Assembly: GCA_012519925.1 (NCBI GenBank)
Contig: JAAYPF010000212.1
Coordinates: 1 to 41,018, forward strand
DNA length: 41,018 nucleotides
DNA from: Clostridiaceae bacterium
GTDB lineage: Bacteria; Bacillota; Clostridia; Acetivibrionales; Acetivibrionaceae
Direction of reading: 5' to 3'
In this document: in pieces, positions 4,134 to 38,871 of the stretch
Layout of the letters: each line of letters starts with the position of its first letter
Numbering within the stretch: position 1 is the first letter of the stretch
Position numbers and translations under genes: made by a program
Notes under the pieces: model-generated
The model's database searches: none
What the model was told of the DNA's origin: nothing
What the model saw: only the letters and a program-made list of their open reading frames with translations

Positions 4134-4718
4134 CCTTTCAAAATAATATAAATACTTATGTTTATAATATATACCAAATATTAATGTTTAATATTTGATA
4201 TAAATTTCTACTTTTAAGTCGGCTTATGTTGTGTTTTTGTCATTCGTTGTATGTGCTGCTTAGATTGTTATAGTTGAATAGAAGTATGTAGTTTGTAGGG
4301 CAAATTTTTTTGAATATATATAACTGTAATAATATTCGAAAGTAAAAAATAAAAATTTGGGGTTAAAAATATTTCTAATAAAATTTTTAATAAAATTAGC
4401 CAAAGATTAAGTCTAAAAACTATGTATTACCGTTCTTAAAACTAATATTTTCAATATTAACAACACAATTAATCAGGATAAAATTTTTGTAAAAAACAAA
4501 CAATACATATTGAAATATGGTTTAATATGGTATATTATATTATTGCAAGTGGTAAAAATAACTAATTATATAATAAATTGCAATTAAGTAGTTAAGATAG
4601 TCAAAAATCGACAGTTTATCATTTCAAATTCGCATTTAATTCACCTGACAAAAGTTTGATTAATTGTTTTATCTATTAACATCAGTTCACAATACCAATC
4701 ATTTAGGGAGGGAGTATA
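4134..4718. other. AT-rich divergent intergenic region
   Basis: 585 bases between the divergent SLH and radical SAM genes, with no credible ORF. A perfect 9-base inverted repeat, CAAATATTA-5-TAATATTTG (4175-4197), lies about 45-70 bases before the SLH start and overlaps a weak minus-strand promoter-like sequence, so it may be an operator. The middle (4260-4500) is featureless AT-rich DNA. Confidence 0.4.
4510..4538 (+). promoter_or_regulatory. Candidate promoter for the radical SAM gene
   Basis: TTGAAA (4510-4515) and TATTAT (4533-4538) have a 17-base spacer. It would leave a leader of about 170 bases before the TTG start at 4719. Confidence 0.35.
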
Positions 4719-6044
4719 TTGAGTAAATGGAAAAAATCAATTTATACTTTTGTAATTGAAAAGGGTGAGGAAATAATCTTATACAACAGTTTTATGGGTG
4801 CTATTGCACGAATACCTAAGGAACATACAAATAGGGTAAGAAATATTTTAAACAATGGAATTGATGAGATTCAACTAGACGAATTATTGGTAGCTGAACT
4901 TTGTGTACAAGGGTTCTTGATTGATAGTGAAATCAATGAGCAATACCTAGTGAGATCAACTCTTGAAAAAGAGCAAGACAGCACTTTAGGTCTTACTATA
5001 ATGCCTCATGAAGACTGTAACTTTAGATGTTCGTATTGCTATGAAAGCTTCGAAAACGGACTTATAACACCTAAAATAATGCGTGGGATAAAATTGTTTG
5101 TTAAGAAAAAAGCAGAAAGAGAAAATTTTTTAAGGATGACTTGCTCTTGGTTCGGTGGTGAACCACTTTTAGCCTTTGATGAAATACTAGATATGTCCGA
5201 TGCTTTTATAGAATCCTGCAACGAAAACGATATTAAATATTTAAGTTCAATGACAACCAATGGATATTTATTGACACCAGAGAGGGTGGAAAAGCTTATT
5301 GAGCGTAATGTGTTATATTTTCAGATAACACTAGATGGACCTGAAGAAATACATAATAGGAGCAGAAAGTTAGTTGGAGGTCAGGGGACGTATAGTACAA
5401 TTATGAAAAACCTTATAGCTTTAAAGGATATTAATAATAAGGATCTTACTGTTAAGATTAGAGTGAATTTTTCTCCAACAACAATTGAAACAATTGAAAA
5501 TTGGATTAGAGATGAAATAGCTCCTGAATTTTCAGCAGACAAGCGATTTATGATAACATTTCAGCCGATAAGAAATTGGGGAAGATGTAATAAAAACATA
5601 AACGAATACTTTCATGATCAAATTTTTATAGGAGATTATATTTCATATTTAAATAATGCTTGTATTAATCTGGGTTTTTCAAAACAAGATGTTCGTCAAT
5701 CGCTAGACCCCCATGGAAATGTCTGTTATGCAAGTAAAAGCAATTCAATAGTAATAGGTTCCGATGGCTCTATATATAAATGTACAGTTGCCTTTGATAA
5801 CTCCATAAACAGTATAGGAGTAATAAATGTGGATGGAACATTAAATCTGAACAAAGTAAAAATGGGTATGTGGACAAAAGACTATGTTGATAGTACTGAG
5901 AAATGTGGAAAGTGTGCATTTTATCCATCATGTCAGACCAAAAAGTGTCCTCTAATATCAATTAATTGCGGTAATCCTACATGTCCAGATATATTTGAGA
6001 ATATTGAGAGTTATATTACAGCAACTATAAGTGCCGAAATATAG
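4719..6044 (+). CDS. Radical SAM/SPASM enzyme, probable peptide maturase
   Basis: 441 aa with a TTG start behind a strong ribosome site (GGGAGGGAG). Residues 1-90 form an N-terminal region (YNSFMGAIARIPKE) of the kind seen in peptide-modifying radical SAM proteins. The [4Fe-4S]/SAM motif CNFRCSYC is Cys100, Cys104 and Cys107; a GGEPL motif follows. The C-terminal SPASM region (about 336-422) carries Cys336-x18-Cys355, then Cys396, 399, 405, 410, 417 and 422, enough for two auxiliary clusters. Enzymes of this type (AlbA, SkfB, ranthipeptide and sulfatase maturases) make radical cross-links or oxidations in peptides or proteins. A 79-aa Cys-containing peptide gene follows 109 bases downstream and is the obvious candidate substrate; no sulfatase or transporter is nearby. 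The exact reaction is unknown. An anSME-like role is the main alternative. Confidence 0.9.
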   Translation: MSKWKKSIYTFVIEKGEEIILYNSFMGAIARIPKEHTNRVRNILNNGIDEIQLDELLVAELCVQGFLIDSEINEQYLVRSTLEKEQDSTLGLTIMPHEDCNFRCSYCYESFENGLITPKIMRGIKLFVKKKAERENFLRMTCSWFGGEPLLAFDEILDMSDAFIESCNENDIKYLSSMTTNGYLLTPERVEKLIERNVLYFQITLDGPEEIHNRSRKLVGGQGTYSTIMKNLIALKDINNKDLTVKIRVNFSPTTIETIENWIRDEIAPEFSADKRFMITFQPIRNWGRCNKNINEYFHDQIFIGDYISYLNNACINLGFSKQDVRQSLDPHGNVCYASKSNSIVIGSDGSIYKCTVAFDNSINSIGVINVDGTLNLNKVKMGMWTKDYVDSTEKCGKCAFYPSCQTKKCPLISINCGNPTCPDIFENIESYITATISAEI

Positions 6045-6118
6045 ATTTTTACTTTTGCTGCAATTTAGATGACCAATTTTAATGATATATGTGATCTTCA
6101 AAATAAAGCCATAAAAAA

Positions 6119-6138
6119 TTATTCCGCCTAGATTTTTT
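6119..6138 (+). repeat. Left inverted repeat flanking the 79-aa peptide gene
   Basis: TTATTCCGCCTAGATTTTTT is matched at 17 of 20 positions, including a perfect first 10, by the reverse complement of 6448-6467. The pair encloses the small peptide gene. Confidence 0.5.
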
Positions 6139-6153
6139 TAAGGAGATGATATA

Positions 6154-6393
6154 ATGTTGGAGAATTTAGAAGAAGTTAAAAAAGCCAAGGCACAGATAAT
6201 GGAAGGTGCATTGACTATATGGAATACTAGATTGGAGGCTTTACAAAAGACCGGAAATTTACAAGATTTACTTCAACATTTAGGCTCACCGGTCGAGTGG
6301 AGTGACAATTGCGGGTGTAATGTACAATGTGAAAGCTTCTATGGTTCACTTGACCAACAAAGTGTTAATCCCGCAGTTAAAAAAGTAGTATAA
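6154..6393 (+). CDS. 79-aa Cys-containing peptide, candidate RiPP precursor
   Basis: A small acidic-to-neutral protein with a clear AAGGAG ribosome site 8 bases before ATG, so it is very likely translated. Residues 1-45 are a charged amphipathic, Leu-rich leader-like helix (LEEVKKAKAQIMEG...LQDLLQHLG). After LGSP comes a short Cys-rich segment, WSDNCGCNVQC (Cys53, Cys55, Cys59), then a Ser/Gly/Asn/Ala tail to residue 79. Clustered Cys in the first half of a putative core followed by a Cys-free acceptor half is the layout of sactipeptide and ranthipeptide precursors. Its position directly after the radical SAM/SPASM gene supports an enzyme-substrate relation. I do not recognise it as a member of a named precursor family, and no protease or exporter gene is adjacent. 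It could instead be an unmodified metal-binding small protein. Confidence 0.75.
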   Translation: MLENLEEVKKAKAQIMEGALTIWNTRLEALQKTGNLQDLLQHLGSPVEWSDNCGCNVQCESFYGSLDQQSVNPAVKKVV

Positions 6394-6447
6394 GGGTCAT
6401 TATAAACTTATATGAGTTACATAGGAGAGGCTTTTCTTGATTTTTCA

Positions 6448-6467
6448 TAAAAATATGGGCGGAATAA
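6448..6467 (-). repeat. Right inverted repeat flanking the 79-aa peptide gene
   Basis: GGCGGAATAA (6458-6467) is the exact complement of 6119-6128, and the adjoining A-rich bases extend the match. It lies about 65 bases past the peptide stop and is followed by T7, so it could also fold with the left copy into a long-range stem in the transcript. Confidence 0.5.
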
Positions 6468-6559
6468 ATTCTTTTTTTACTTAGCGAAATTGTAACAACA
6501 GAACTTGTTGATGAATAGTATGCTATTGTAAAGAAATTAAAATGAAAGGATTGATTTTT

Positions 6560-6685
6560 ATGTTAGGTAAAGGTTCTGTAGGCGGTATATTCGATAACGA
6601 TGAAATTTTATGGTTTATTATTCTATTCTTATTACTGTTCTTCTGTAGACCATGTGGACCAGTAGCGGGTATTGCTGATTGTTAG
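6560..6685 (+). CDS. 41-aa micro membrane peptide ending in Asp-Cys
   Basis: ATG at 6560 follows an AAAGGA ribosome site by 9 bases. The peptide opens MLGKGSVGGIFDNDEIL, continues as one very hydrophobic helix (about residues 16-28, WFIILFLLLFF), and ends in a Cys-rich tail with CRPC and the terminal GIADC. Cys are at 29, 32 and 41. A second peptide with the same plan is encoded on the other strand at 7231-7335. The arrangement resembles very small clostridial single-helix proteins of the YjcZ/sporulation-associated sort. I cannot assign a function. It could also be a second substrate of the radical SAM enzyme upstream, but its hydrophobic helix argues more for a membrane microprotein. Confidence 0.65.
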   Translation: MLGKGSVGGIFDNDEILWFIILFLLLFFCRPCGPVAGIADC

Positions 6686-7230
6686 TTTTATTAAGAAATT
6701 AGGCATGTAAAGTTTATAGTCGTGAAATTGTTTGACTACTATAAAAAATTTACAATGGTATTTGTAGTGATTTTTGTTTACTTATTTACTACCAAGAAGT
6801 ATTTCATGGCTTAGTATGTGTTTAAAAGAATAAAATGTAGTGGATGTAATAATCGGAGGACAAAGTCTATCCGATTATTACATTTTACATATGAATGTAG
6901 TTATGAAGCTTTCTTTAAGTAAACAAAAATAGCATATGGGAACATTCGTAGCATGAATGCTCCCATATGTAAGCTTTGCTATTAATAAATAATAACATTA
7001 GGCAATTTATTCAGTATATTAGTAAAAGCTTATCATCAATTTTAAAGATTTTCGTTGTAGAAAGGGTATTCAATATATAAGGTGTTAAAAAATTTAATAG
7101 TAAATATAGCTCTTTATGGAATCACCTAATATGTAAATTGTACTTTTAGAAATTACAAATGTAGAGATTTTACAAAAACTCTAATAATTAAGTAGTCTTT
7201 TCACTCTATGTAGGTTATAGAAATGCTTTA
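6686..7230. other. Noncoding region rich in nested inverted repeats
   Basis: No credible ORF. It holds a perfect 15-base inverted repeat (6770-6784 with 6916-6930). That pair encloses a perfect 14-base-pair hairpin, ATGTAATAATCGGA-12-TCCGATTATTACAT (6844-6883). Immediately after is a third hairpin, CATATGGGAACATTC-7-GAATGCTCCCATATG (6933-6969, 14 of 15 pairs). Together they make about 200 bases of unusually structured DNA or RNA. The hairpin at 6844-6883, followed by TTTT, could end transcription from the left. The remainder, 6970-7230, is plain AT-rich sequence. Confidence 0.6.
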
Positions 7231-7335
7231 TTAACAATCGTAGCCTTTTCCGTTGCAAAATAGTATTAAGAAAACAAGGATGAAGAACAATATATCGCTA
7301 TTATCACCAAAAAACTTTTTTAAGCCGTCTTTCAT
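7231..7335 (-). CDS. 34-aa micro membrane peptide ending in Asp-Cys, paralogue of 6560-6685
   Basis: On the minus strand, ATG (7335-7333) is preceded by GGAGGTAAATAAAT, a strong ribosome site. The peptide opens MKDGLKKFFGDNSDIL, then has a hydrophobic helix (FFILVFLILF) and ends CNGKGYDC. It matches the 41-aa plus-strand peptide in plan and residues: Phe, one residue, then Asp-Asn-x-(Asp/Glu)-Ile-Leu-aromatic-Phe-Ile, a Leu/Phe helix, a Cys at its end, and the same terminal Asp-Cys-stop. Two copies with good ribosome sites on opposite strands argue against chance. Function is unknown; a small membrane protein, perhaps spore-associated, is a guess. Confidence 0.65.
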   Translation of the reverse strand: MKDGLKKFFGDNSDILFFILVFLILFCNGKGYDC

Positions 7336-7489
7336 ATTTATTTACCTCCATGAAATAATTTTAGAATACTACATACTATTCAACTTATAAAAAATGGTGC
7401 ATGAAAACTTTTACAATTTGCTAGACCATCATTGCTAATTGATGTTATAATATAAAAGGTAAGTATTTATTGAGAGGGGTAGTTTTGAT

Positions 7490-8071
7490 ATGAAAAAGTT
7501 TGTGGTAGGTTTAGTTTTAGGTAGTCTTATCACAGGGACAGTAGGGGCAACGGCTCAATACATCTTAAATCCAATAACTTACGATATAACAGTTAATGGA
7601 AAAAGCTTGAAAGATGAGGAATACCCAATGCTGAACTTAAATGGGACAACTTATTTAAGCCTAAGGAAGACAACTGAAGCAGTAGGGGCAACACTTTTCT
7701 GGAATGAGGCTACTAAGACAGCTGAATTGACAACAACTCAGAATTCATCAAGTGTCAATGTAAGTTCAAGTGGAAGTTTTTCAATGAAATCAGAATTTTT
7801 TGTATTACGTGAAGAGCCAATTATGTATGTAATACATGATAATGAATACTATATTGAGATTTCTGCTTTTTCACAATATTTAACTGCAGATGCTAGTAAC
7901 TGTTACATAAAAATTCCTGGCAAACCAGAATTAACACTGCCAAAAGAACAAGGAAGCGACAAGTTAAAAACAGGTGAAACAGTAATTGAATACTTGAACT
8001 TTACTTATGTTAGATTAGCTGATTTAGAATTTACAACAGAAATAAAAGATAATGTTTTGTGGCTAAAATAG
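7490..8071 (+). CDS. Secreted stalk-domain (copper amine oxidase N-terminal-like) protein
   Basis: 193 aa. Residues 1-23 form a signal peptide (KKFVVGLVLGSLITGTVGATA). Residues 29-83 match the copper amine oxidase N-terminal-like fold (PF07833): an ITVNGKSL strand, a LNLNGTTYLSLRK motif, then an AVGATLFWNEATKTA motif. This module is common in clostridial surface proteins and does not imply oxidase activity; no oxidase domain is present. A Ser-rich linker (86-97) leads to a second beta-rich half (about 98-193) that I do not recognise, which may be a degenerate second copy of the same fold (YLNFTYVRLADLEF). The start has a GAGAGGGG ribosome site. It is transcribed alone and ends at a clear terminator. 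It is probably an extracytoplasmic or wall-associated protein. Confidence 0.8.
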   Translation: MKKFVVGLVLGSLITGTVGATAQYILNPITYDITVNGKSLKDEEYPMLNLNGTTYLSLRKTTEAVGATLFWNEATKTAELTTTQNSSSVNVSSSGSFSMKSEFFVLREEPIMYVIHDNEYYIEISAFSQYLTADASNCYIKIPGKPELTLPKEQGSDKLKTGETVIEYLNFTYVRLADLEFTTEIKDNVLWLK

Positions 8072-8620: not shown

Positions 8621-9454
8621 ATGTTAAGTGATGAGGTAGCACCATTAAGCGAACCTCCGAGGTTAAAGGCTCAAAAAAAGTATAAAAAGACAATTATATT
8701 GGTGGTATATATTATATTTGTCGTACTTGTATCACTAGGGGTCAATAATTACATTATATATAAATGGTACAAAGACACTAGGCTAAAGTACGAAGACACA
8801 TTTCTCAGAATACAAACAATCGCAGAAGAAAATGACAACTTATTATCTAAAAATAAAACTATAACCTATGAGTACAATATGTTGGAAGAGCAGTTCAAAC
8901 AGATAGTGGCACAAAACGAGCAAATTAATACTATGCTTGATCAAATCAAGAACAGAAATTACGAGCTGATGGAGCAGAATAAACAGCTTGAAGAGCAAAA
9001 TAGGGAATTATCACAAGACAATATTGAGCTTCAGAACTCATTGAAGAAGGCAGCCTCTGTAGGAATAAAACCTCAGAGCTATACCGAATTTGAAGGGATA
9101 AGTTCAAGAGGTGCTGTAGACAGAGGTAAGTATTTAGGGAAATTTCTAGGGACAGCATATACACCCTGTAGTTCAGAGTGCGGTAATGATTTGGGTATTA
9201 CAAATTCTGGACAACCGATTATTCCGGGAGTATCTATTGCAATTGACAAAGAATACTGGCCCTTTGGAACGATATTCTATATAAAAGGATTGGGATATGC
9301 AGTAGCTATGGATACAGGTAGTGCAATTAAGGGTAAAAATAGATTTGATTTTGCAGTGTTTGACAAAAACTTTGCATATAAATTAGGTTCTGATTATTGG
9401 GACGTTTATCTGGTAAAGATGGGAAACGGCAAAGTTGAGGATATATCCCTTTAA
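8621..9454 (+). CDS. Membrane-anchored coiled-coil protein with 3D (Asp-Asp-Asp) domain
   Basis: 277 aa. A cytoplasmic tail (1-22) precedes one membrane helix (about 24-42). Residues 50-145 are a long Gln/Glu/Asn/Leu-rich coiled coil (EENDNLL...EQFKQ...EQNKQLEEQNREL). The C-terminal 3D domain (about 177-269) begins GTAYTPC and has the three diagnostic aspartates at 209 (AIDKEYWPFG), 231 (AMDTGSAIKG) and 243 (RFDFAV). The 3D fold is shared with MltA-type lytic transglycosylases and with YabG/YuiC/resuscitation-factor-like muralytic proteins, so a role in peptidoglycan cleavage outside the membrane is likely. The coiled coil would hold the domain away from the membrane. It has a GGGAGG ribosome site, is monocistronic, and ends at the strong terminator at 9581. 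Confidence 0.88.
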   Translation: MLSDEVAPLSEPPRLKAQKKYKKTIILVVYIIFVVLVSLGVNNYIIYKWYKDTRLKYEDTFLRIQTIAEENDNLLSKNKTITYEYNMLEEQFKQIVAQNEQINTMLDQIKNRNYELMEQNKQLEEQNRELSQDNIELQNSLKKAASVGIKPQSYTEFEGISSRGAVDRGKYLGKFLGTAYTPCSSECGNDLGITNSGQPIIPGVSIAIDKEYWPFGTIFYIKGLGYAVAMDTGSAIKGKNRFDFAVFDKNFAYKLGSDYWDVYLVKMGNGKVEDISL

Positions 9455-36739: not shown

Positions 36740-36781
36740 ATGAAACAAAAATTAGGAAAAGGATGGGTGAAGATTAAATGA
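36740..36781 (+). CDS. 13-aa leader peptide coupled to the xylanase gene
   Basis: ATG at 36740 has a strong ribosome site (AGAAAGAGGGG). It encodes [13 protein letters not shown] and its TGA overlaps the ATG of the xylanase gene (ATGA, 36778-36781). The xylanase start itself has only a poorly spaced AAAGGA, 15 bases off, so its translation may depend on ribosomes finishing this leader. It may alternatively be a duplicated 5' end (MKQK/MKHK). Confidence 0.45.
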
Positions 36782-38871
36782 AACATAAAATAAGAGGAAA
36801 ATTTTCGATTTTACTAAGTCTTACTCTTTTGTTATCTTTATTTCCGTTAAATGCACAAGCTAAAACGGTCACCTCAAATGATACCGGTACCCACGGAGGG
36901 TATAACTACGAATACTGGAAAGACAATGGGAACGGAACCATGGTATTAAAAGATGATGGTGCCTTTAGTTGTGAGTGGAATAATATCAATAATATATTAT
37001 TCCGCAAAGGTCTTAAATACAATGAGACCCAGACATATCAGCAAATTGGTACAATGACAATGGAATATGCTTGTGATTACTACCCAAATGGTAATTCATA
37101 TTTGTCTGTTTATGGGTGGACAAGTGATCCGCTTGTAGAGTACTACATTATAGAGAGTTGGGGAAATTGGAGACCACCAGGAAGTAACAATCCAAAAGGA
37201 ACTGTTAATGTTGATGGCGGTATATATGACATATATGAGACCACAAGAACTCAACAGCCTTCCATTAAAGGTACTGCAACTTTCCAACAATACTGGAGCG
37301 TTAGACAAAATAAACGTACTAGCGGAACCATTTCTGTAAGTGAACACTTTAAGGCTTGGGAAGCTAAAGGCATGAAAATGGGTAAGTTCTATGAGATTTC
37401 CCTTGTTGTAGAAGGCTATCAGAGTAGCGGTAAAGCTGACGTAACCAAGATGTCAATTAATATTGATGGCAAACCAGCGTCATCAGCTAATCCGACTGCT
37501 ACTCCAACTTCATTACCTGCGACTGAAAGAAGTGCTTTTTCAACAATAGAAGCAGAGGAGTATAACAGTGCAAACGGTACTAATCTGAGATCTATTGGTA
37601 CAGGCGTGGGATACATACAAAATGGTGACTATATTGTATATAATATGATTAATTTTGGAAGTGGAGCAAATACTTTCAAAGCAAAAGTTGCCAATGGCAA
37701 TACTACAGCTACTACTATCCAGTTGAGATTGGGTAGTCCAAGTGGCACACTTATAGGTTCTTTAGTTGTTCCGACAAACGGTGATTGGGATGCTTATGAT
37801 GAATTATCTACTACTGTAAGTGGTGTTTCGGGTACAAAAGACTTATATTTATGCTTTGATGGACCTGTAAACATTGATTCCTTCATCTTTGGAGGAGGAA
37901 GTTCTATTCCGACTAGTTCTCCTAACTCAGGAACAACATTACTTGGTGATGTTGATGGAAATAAGGAAATCAATTCATTGGATTTTGCCATGATGAGACA
38001 GTATTTGCTTGGAATGATAAGCTCTGTTTCGGATGCTGCAGACGTAAACCAAGATGGTGAGCGAAATTCACTGGATTTTGGAATGTTAAGACAACATCTT
38101 TTAGGTATAATTGATTTAGGTGATATTAATCCAACTAATCCACCAGCTACACCAACTCCAAAGATAACTCCAACACCAACTCCAGTAGAAACCGCTAAAT
38201 TCCGTTGTTTCTTGTTGTTGGGGCAATCGAATATGGCAGGTTGGGCTAGAGCAGAGTCTTCCGATAAGGTGACAAATCCACGCATACTTTCATTAGGTTA
38301 TGACAATAATCAATGGGGCGTAGCTGTTCCACCATTGCATGAAGCATTCCAAGGTGCAATAGGTCCTGGTGACTGGTTTGCTAAGACTCTAATAAATAGA
38401 CTCCCTGAAAATGATACGATTGGCTTGATTCCATGTGCTATAAGCGGTGAAAAGATTGAGACCTTTATGAAAAATGGAGGAAGCAAATATAACTGGATTG
38501 TCAGCCGTGCAAAATCAGCACAACAAAGAGGTGGAGTTATTGAAGGTATTCTTTTACACCAAGGAGAATCCAATAACGGACAATCCGATTGGCCAAATAA
38601 AGTAAGTACTTTGATTAGTGACCTTAAGAAAGATTTGGGCTTAGGTGATGTTCCTGTTCTTGCTGGCGAATTGCTATACAGCGGAAGCTGTGCAGGTCAC
38701 AACACTCAGATAAATAGATTACCATCAATGATTAATAATTGTTATGTTATTTCAGCAAGTGGTTTGTCTGGTGATCCATCAGATGTATGGGGACTTCATT
38801 TCAATCATGACTCAACAGTAGAATTAGGTAAGAGATATGCAAATAAAATGATTGAAGTTCTCGGATGGTAA
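36778..38871 (+). CDS. Cellulosomal xylanase/esterase: GH11-CBM6-dockerin-CE6-like
   Basis: 697 aa. Signal peptide 1-28 (cut after AQA). GH11 xylanase about 33-231: nucleophile Glu121 (PLVEYYI) and acid/base Glu212 (VEGYQSSG), plus [10 protein letters not shown]. Then a Thr/Pro linker, a CBM6-type carbohydrate-binding domain (about 253-372, [12 protein letters not shown]...NGDYIVY...DSFIFGG), a type I dockerin (about 388-446) with two calcium-binding repeats ([12 protein letters not shown] and [12 protein letters not shown]), and a PTP linker. The C-terminal domain (476-697) is a CE6/SASA-type esterase: GQSNMAG with Ser484, HQGESN (594-599) and DVWGLH with Asp669 and His674. It should cut the xylan backbone and remove acetyl groups while docked on a scaffoldin. 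Compare C. thermocellum XynA, which carries a CE4 instead. A terminator follows. Confidence 0.92.

Follow-up and report, generated by a model that had tools for sequence, protein, structure and literature searches.

A radical SAM enzyme and an adjacent 79-residue peptide as a candidate minimal RiPP pair in a Clostridiaceae bacterium

A 41,018-nucleotide stretch from a Clostridiaceae bacterium (family Acetivibrionaceae; contig JAAYPF010000212.1), here called the window, carries the gene of a radical S-adenosylmethionine (SAM) enzyme with a SPASM region, followed by the gene of a 79-residue peptide. An earlier reading of the bare sequence (the original prediction) had proposed these two open reading frames (ORFs), at 4,719 to 6,044 and 6,154 to 6,393, as a system for a ribosomally synthesized and post-translationally modified peptide (RiPP), and we found both at these positions on the forward strand. 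The pair is real and narrowly distributed, and its precursor is new although its kind is known. From the sequences compared below, we consider it probable that enzyme and peptide form a minimal RiPP-type pair that modifies one block of the peptide, PVEWSDNC..NV. We infer that the peptide is the substrate of the enzyme and that this block is the modified site; the bond type, the cleavage site and a biological role as signal or antimicrobial are guesses, and the choice among a sactipeptide, a ranthipeptide and a carbon-carbon cross-link lies beyond what sequence can decide.

Results

Model scores favour a RiPP maturase

The enzyme gene encodes 441 residues and starts with TTG, with GGGAGGGAG upstream. 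The complete CxxxCxxC motif that had been proposed for it is CNFRCSYC, the [4Fe-4S]/SAM motif at residues 100-107 (5,016 to 5,039), and its three cysteines are invariant in the ten sequences of its clade that were aligned. The count of eight C-terminal cysteines also held (residues 336, 355, 396, 399, 405, 410, 417 and 422), within a SPASM region that the clade alignment places at residues 336-422 (5,724 to 5,984). C336 and C355 are invariant in the ten sequences and C396, C399, C405, C410 and C422 nearly so; C417 is missing from the orthologue in a sister species (G001), which shares the other seven. This set would provide for two auxiliary clusters. The N-terminal ~90 residues (4,719 to 4,988) lie where a RiPP recognition element (RRE) would stand and may be RRE-like, with the alignment to the best-scoring model running over residues 11-410; Pfam gave no RRE or PqqD match, and no RRE model matched.

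Scored with hmmscan against NCBIfam, the enzyme matched best the RiPP maturase model TIGR04463 (rSAM_vs_C_rich; 201.3 bits, curated cut-off 525), followed by Clo7bot CtpM (TIGR04334; 178, cut-off 600), CefB (155), FlmE/OhkG (148), the geopeptide maturase (138) and the ranthipeptide maturase PapB (NF047865; 116.2, cut-off 340). Lower scores went to the sulfatase maturase model TIGR03942 (74.2, cut-off 349), the SCIFF maturase model TIGR03974 (65, cut-off 425), YhhB (57.6, cut-off 445) and GrrM/OscB (48.7, cut-off 310). These values support a RiPP maturase rather than a sulfatase maturase. An identity as an anaerobic sulfatase maturase or another protein-modifying SPASM enzyme is extremely improbable: the four PDB matches do include structures of sulfatase maturases, with 4k37 at E 2.5e-10, but the best match there is 5wgg (E 4.8e-16, or 7e-34 with a profile), the alignments to the sulfatase maturases begin only at residue 90, and TIGR03942 reaches 74 bits against 201 for TIGR04463. 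The original prediction had counted on an enzyme that does not group with sulfatase maturases, and the comparison agrees, resting on model scores, as our enzyme tree contains no proven sulfatase maturase. We take 5wgg to be CteB, a SCIFF ranthipeptide maturase; it is the best solved-structure match, although the window peptide is not SCIFF-like. Viperin matches of the radical SAM core in PADLOC (best 44.6 bits) were rejected in view of the 201 bits for TIGR04463.

One block of the peptide is conserved

The peptide gene is preceded by a Shine-Dalgarno sequence, AAGGAG at 6,140 to 6,145 ahead of the ATG, that is kept in G001. The orthologue there (L003, 2,893 to 3,066) occupies the same place beside an intact enzyme with 69% identity to that of the window, and it matches the window peptide at E 7e-19 with 54% identity. 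Over the 57 shared codons the dN/dS of the peptide is ~0.29 (pN/pS bootstrap 0.26-0.72), as expected under purifying selection; that of the enzyme is ~0.10, with dS near saturation. Because of the Shine-Dalgarno sequence, the orthologue in the same place and the low dN/dS, the gene is more than a chance ORF. No NCBIfam model and no significant Pfam model matched the peptide (best E 0.19), and tools dependent on known precursors would overlook it.

The window peptide contains WSDNCGCNVQC, as had been described, with C53-G-C55-NVQ-C59, and then a 20-residue tail, ESFYGSLDQQSVNPAVKKVV. In G001 the peptide ends in LGTPVEWSDNCEGNV, with a stop where the window has Gln58, so that it keeps only C53 of the three cysteines and the tail is absent. 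Residues 46-57 (PVEWSDNCGCNV in the window, 6,289 to 6,324; PVEWSDNCEGNV and then a stop in G001) are identical at 10 of 12 positions, four of those codons carrying silent changes, against 21 of 45 for the residues before them. By this two-species codon comparison, PVEWSDNC..NV is the conserved element and CxCxxxC is not. W49-S50-D51 and the C-x-x-N formed by C53 and N56 are unchanged in both species.

These results do not support the proposed sactipeptide or ranthipeptide layout, in which a CxCxxxC cluster would precede an acceptor half: the sole homologue lacks that half together with C55 and C59, so that the conservation expected of such a layout holds for C53 alone. The tail is free of cysteine, as proposed, but serine, glycine, asparagine or alanine fill only 6 of its 20 positions, and the amphipathic leader was not borne out, as 918 of 2,000 residue shuffles reached the helical moment of residues 1-44. 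The shortening in G001 could be either a recent loss of the peptide end or a sign that the short form suffices for the enzyme. The first alternative leads to a hairpin of sactipeptide type, with C53, C55 and C59 as donors to acceptors in the tail; the window form would be the functional one, and the gene of G001 would be in decay, truncated by a stop codon of recent origin. We regard this as possible but doubtful. The bases after the G001 stop (TGTGA) still match the window, as for a recent stop, the intact G001 enzyme fits a recent loss, and purifying selection acts on the first 57 codons. However, the tails fail to align convincingly past those first bases, C55, whose codon precedes the stop, is missing from G001 as well, and several peptides of the enzyme's clade end at or near their cysteine cluster, so that the long tail may be the odd feature.

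The pair occurs in two species

All genome sets were built with one genome per species. Among 14 genomes of the family, enzyme and peptide occur together in two and neither occurs in the other 12 (one of which, G011, is 55% complete), and the locus is syntenic in G001; this joint presence and absence, together with the synteny, supports the pairing, as the original prediction had anticipated, although the two genomes with the pair represent a single inheritance. At a threshold of 1e-20 the enzyme had matches in 17 of 148 relatives, its own genome included, with G001 as the sole orthologue (69%) and the next match at 35%. The peptide was found in the window's own genome (G000) and in G001 only among 58 genomes of the order and 381 of the class, and in G000 only among 398 genomes of the phylum; viral contigs, phages and plasmids gave nothing. 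Of two contig scans for named relatives, one found none and the other a distant Alkaliphilus locus. Thirteen further genomes of the order, with best E values of 0.013-0.77, were treated as chance. So were the two weak matches among the genomes of the class, G163 and G008 (E 0.008); the former overlaps, out of frame, a 590-residue ORF in a 3.1-kb locus without a radical SAM ORF. Within the sets searched, the peptide had no convincing occurrence apart from the enzyme. A literature search on TIGR04463 found no papers, and passages of a survey of RiPPs in anaerobes (PMC4289311) have nothing on this pair.

A third species of the genus, G002, has the downstream genes, and at the place of the pair it has a transposase-like ORF (identified by eye, partly N); gain and loss of the pair are therefore indistinguishable.

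Several related enzymes stand beside short peptides

In a tree of 32 enzymes, those of the window and G001 group together at 100/100 support, and with G730, a genome of the same phylum, and two enzymes from Deinococcus plasmids at 99/96; this group nests in a clade of 13 rows (99/98). Measured by tree path, the enzyme of G730 (2.27) is the closest from outside the genus, ahead of Deinococcus (2.42). A tree of 30 rows that omits G730 and L021 gives the same picture (clade of 12 rows, 100/98). Long branches and a deviating composition in several rows leave the deep order uncertain. Outside the clade fall rows with Clo7bot peptides, such as L097, and the SCIFF maturase L056, which scores 691.7 on TIGR03974. 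The Clo7bot system is also clostridial, but the Paraclostridium locus L097 differs in having seven annotated peptides of ~41-53 residues and ABC transporter proteins.

As the original prediction would lead one to expect, several loci of the clade have a short cysteine-containing peptide beside the enzyme. In the G730 locus (L106, 6,158 to 12,061), a 24-residue peptide, MEWIQKPDAALDPPQHFDSNCHNC, ending HFDSNCHNC, begins 20 bases after the enzyme gene, whose product was the best match in its search (268.7 bits). G249 has two near-identical 24-residue peptides, MKKLVKPMKEKM(N/T)FALYNENNCWC; G102 has ...TNYGNCNCTAGC, ending YGNCNCTAGC; and the peptides of G056 (...VLYCGENGICF) and G295 (...KKYEGCC) complete the series. 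All five stop at or near their cysteine cluster, like the G001 peptide. The gene neighbours are RiPP-like in several of these loci, whereas the window pair has no such partners adjoining it. Acyl carrier protein (ACP)-like proteins occur in G102, G056 and G110 (30-38 bits, under the cut-offs) and in G249 (PF00550); a protein that matches both subtilase and DUF1611_C is encoded in G110 and G249 together with ABC proteins, which G295 has as well. In the loci of G249 (L107, 5,681 to 14,341) and G110 (L045, 5,910 to 14,462), the ACP-like protein follows the radical SAM gene and one ABC protein was assigned by Pfam and a second by eye; a transglutaminase-like protein is also present in G249.

The G730 locus continues, unlike the window, with a PF02441 flavoprotein, an S9 peptidase and an MFS gene. 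The flavoprotein scored 127.8 bits on the CoaBC model and 32.5 bits on that of a CypD-type peptide-cysteine decarboxylase, both below cut-off, and a tblastn search with it found no such gene in the ten other loci tested, the window included. By its gene content this could be a RiPP cluster that joins radical SAM cross-linking with decarboxylation of a C-terminal cysteine; the scores also allow an ordinary CoaC-like enzyme.

Other loci seen in these searches are recorded here. In G193, Gly-Cys repeat peptides (L059, 850 to 1,373; ASGAGCGCGCGCGCGCGTKA and a 75-residue Gly/Cys-rich one) stand next to a radical SAM enzyme that also belongs to the clade. Four radical SAM/SPASM enzymes lie in one stretch of G042 (L048, 9,353 to 17,791), where a 50-residue ORF with eight cysteines stands at 9,125 to 9,277. 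The enzyme ORF of Deinococcus sp. KNUC1210 (L072, 4,986 to 6,137) has 383 residues against 441 in D. actinosclerus, and its last cysteine cluster appears in a different frame.

Surroundings of the pair

An inverted repeat (arms at 6,113 to 6,137 and 6,449 to 6,473, not assigned to a strand) brackets the peptide gene. It is present in both species with the core TTCCGCC...GGCGGAA, and pairs at 21 of 25 positions in the window and 13 of 13 in G001 (arms at 2,859 to 2,871 and 3,174 to 3,186 of L003). None of 60 dinucleotide shuffles reached its score in either species; G000 has one copy of the spaced pattern and G001 has two, one of them elsewhere, compared with 0 and 1 copies of a reversed control pattern. 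Read by eye, two of its pairs seem changed on both sides between the species. The minimum-energy RNA structures of both species draw the long-range stem, and the folding energy of the peptide transcript is no better than that of shuffles (z 0.25 and -0.91). The repeat could serve the pairing of mRNA ends, termination or a boundary.

This repeat also bears on whether the two genes belong together. The peptide could be a small cytosolic protein, and the enzyme a neighbour with another target and no functional link to it; the 109 bp between the genes, the occurrence in two genomes only and a flanking repeat that may mark the peptide gene as a separate unit in both species would fit such an arrangement. 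We think it quite improbable, given the joint presence and absence in the 14 family genomes, even if the present cases count once, and the short N-C peptides beside some related enzymes.

Upstream of the pair lie a reductase (FabV-like by eye) and an SLH protein; downstream lie a 47-residue membrane peptide, a Cu_amine_oxidN1 protein and tRNA-Pro. A promoter-like TTGAAA-17-TATTAT at 4,510 to 4,538 (forward strand) is a consensus match of a kind found 19 times in the region, where 21.2 are expected, and lies in a stretch (4,484 to 4,571) with 82% identity to G001. There was no terminator-like site on the forward strand within 4,200 to 7,500, and the Rfam scan gave two tRNAs only. The membrane peptide gene (6,542 or 6,560 to 6,685; GGIFDNDEILWFIILFLLLFFC) was rejected as a second substrate: a separate conserved region precedes it, and 15 of the 21 genomes searched contain relatives at E <= 0.01, frequently more than one, and 13 of these 15 are without the pair; in G002 too it is present without enzyme and peptide. 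Elsewhere in the window, at 36,778 to 38,871, a protein with a dockerin-like repeat and an SGNH-esterase-like C terminus was recognized by eye only; it would point to a host that bears a cellulosome.

Discussion

Proposed reaction

In the reaction that we propose, the enzyme would bind the leader of the peptide, approximately residues 1-45, cleave SAM reductively at the CNFRCSYC cluster and abstract a hydrogen from a residue in the block PVEWSDNC..NV; the SPASM auxiliary clusters would then assist in capturing the radical as a side-chain cross-link. The leading candidate for the bond may be a thioether from C53 to N56 (C-x-x-N) or a neighbouring residue, and C55 and C59 of the window peptide could form extra thioethers that are not possible in G001. 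We favour C53 because the nearest models are maturases of cysteine-containing peptides and because the C-x-x-N is invariant, in line with two precedents. A passage in PMC11002830 reports a Cys-Asn S-Cbeta ranthionine from Streptococcus, and one in PMC9413430 states that PapB tolerates Cys-Xn-Asp with n = 0-6. PapB, which makes freyrasin from PapA, is likewise a SPASM maturase of a cysteine peptide, but PapA has six motifs, whereas the window peptide has no CX3D/E repeat and one to three cysteines across the two species.

The main chemical rival to a thioether is a carbon-carbon, three-residue cyclophane between W49 and D51 (Trp-x-Asp), the cysteines being incidental or kept for a later modification. 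W49-S50-D51 is invariant in both species and conforms to the triceptide motif, aromatic-x-Asn/Asp, which alone is weak evidence; an aromatic residue stands at the same distance before cysteine in G730 (F) and one residue further in G249 (Y); and a passage in PMC11002830 describes OscB linking Trp C7 to the Cbeta of Asn or Asp at i+2. The enzyme, however, is nearer to thioether-type models (PapB at 116 bits, the triceptide models YhhB and GrrM/OscB at 57.6 and 48.7, under their cut-offs), and the i+2 residue is S in G730 and E in G249 rather than N or D. The cyclophane is therefore unlikely in our view.

Whichever bond is made, the leader may be removed near G44-S/T45, just ahead of the block, which would leave a product of 34 residues in the window and of 12 in G001. 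The site resembles those of double-glycine type, although GT is not typical. Genes located elsewhere would have to supply peptidase and exporter, unless the product stays inside the cell. Away from the pair, the genome of the window has three C39 peptidase matches on two contigs, one with internal stops, so that export of the product is conceivable. Such products usually end up as secreted signals or antimicrobials.

Weighing the evidence

The features of a RiPP radical SAM system that the window pair possesses are the CxxxCxxC motif, the SPASM cysteines and an adjacent, co-occurring small gene. Several observations weigh against a RiPP-type pair that modifies the conserved block. All NCBIfam scores of the enzyme lie far under the curated cut-offs, and L098, a plasmid enzyme annotated as TIGR04463 and located beside a CefA peptide, falls outside the clade of the window enzyme; the best-scoring model is therefore no true home for it. 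Statements on peptide conservation all rest on two sequences, that is, on one homologue, in which two of the three cysteines are not conserved, and the two genomes that bear the pair count as a single inheritance. The genes adjoining the pair, judged by the ORFs of the window and Pfam, include none for an exporter, a protease or immunity, in agreement with the original prediction; a clustered protease and exporter are usual, but not universal, in RiPP clusters. Finally, the motif aromatic-x(1-4)-N-C-x(0-3)-[CN], found in five of 13 clade loci, window and G001 among them, and in one of 15 control loci, was defined post hoc from the peptides, with window and G001 not independent of each other, and is a lead and no test; it is missing from eight of the 13 loci, including both from Deinococcus. 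Counted per small ORF with a Shine-Dalgarno-like box, it occurs in 6 of 54 in the clade and 1 of 73 in the controls, and residue shuffles of the clade ORFs gave a mean of 0.69 and a maximum of 5 (500 shuffles).

A bolder version of the proposal, which we judge rather unlikely, is that the pair represents a radical SAM system with neither tail nor exporter, in which the block is modified and which belongs to an undescribed clade (window, G001, G730 and perhaps Deinococcus) with aromatic-x-x-N-C cores, a flavin-dependent cysteine decarboxylase acting on the G730 core. If this were true, the sister species would release a product of no more than 12 residues, and G730 would join radical SAM chemistry with C-terminal cysteine decarboxylation. 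The clade offers a candidate sequence signature, and the gene set of G730, with a radical SAM enzyme, a peptide ending in cysteine and a flavoprotein resembling cysteine decarboxylases, is unusual. Long and very short candidate substrates for enzymes that are 69% identical would amount to a natural experiment on which residues a SPASM maturase needs.

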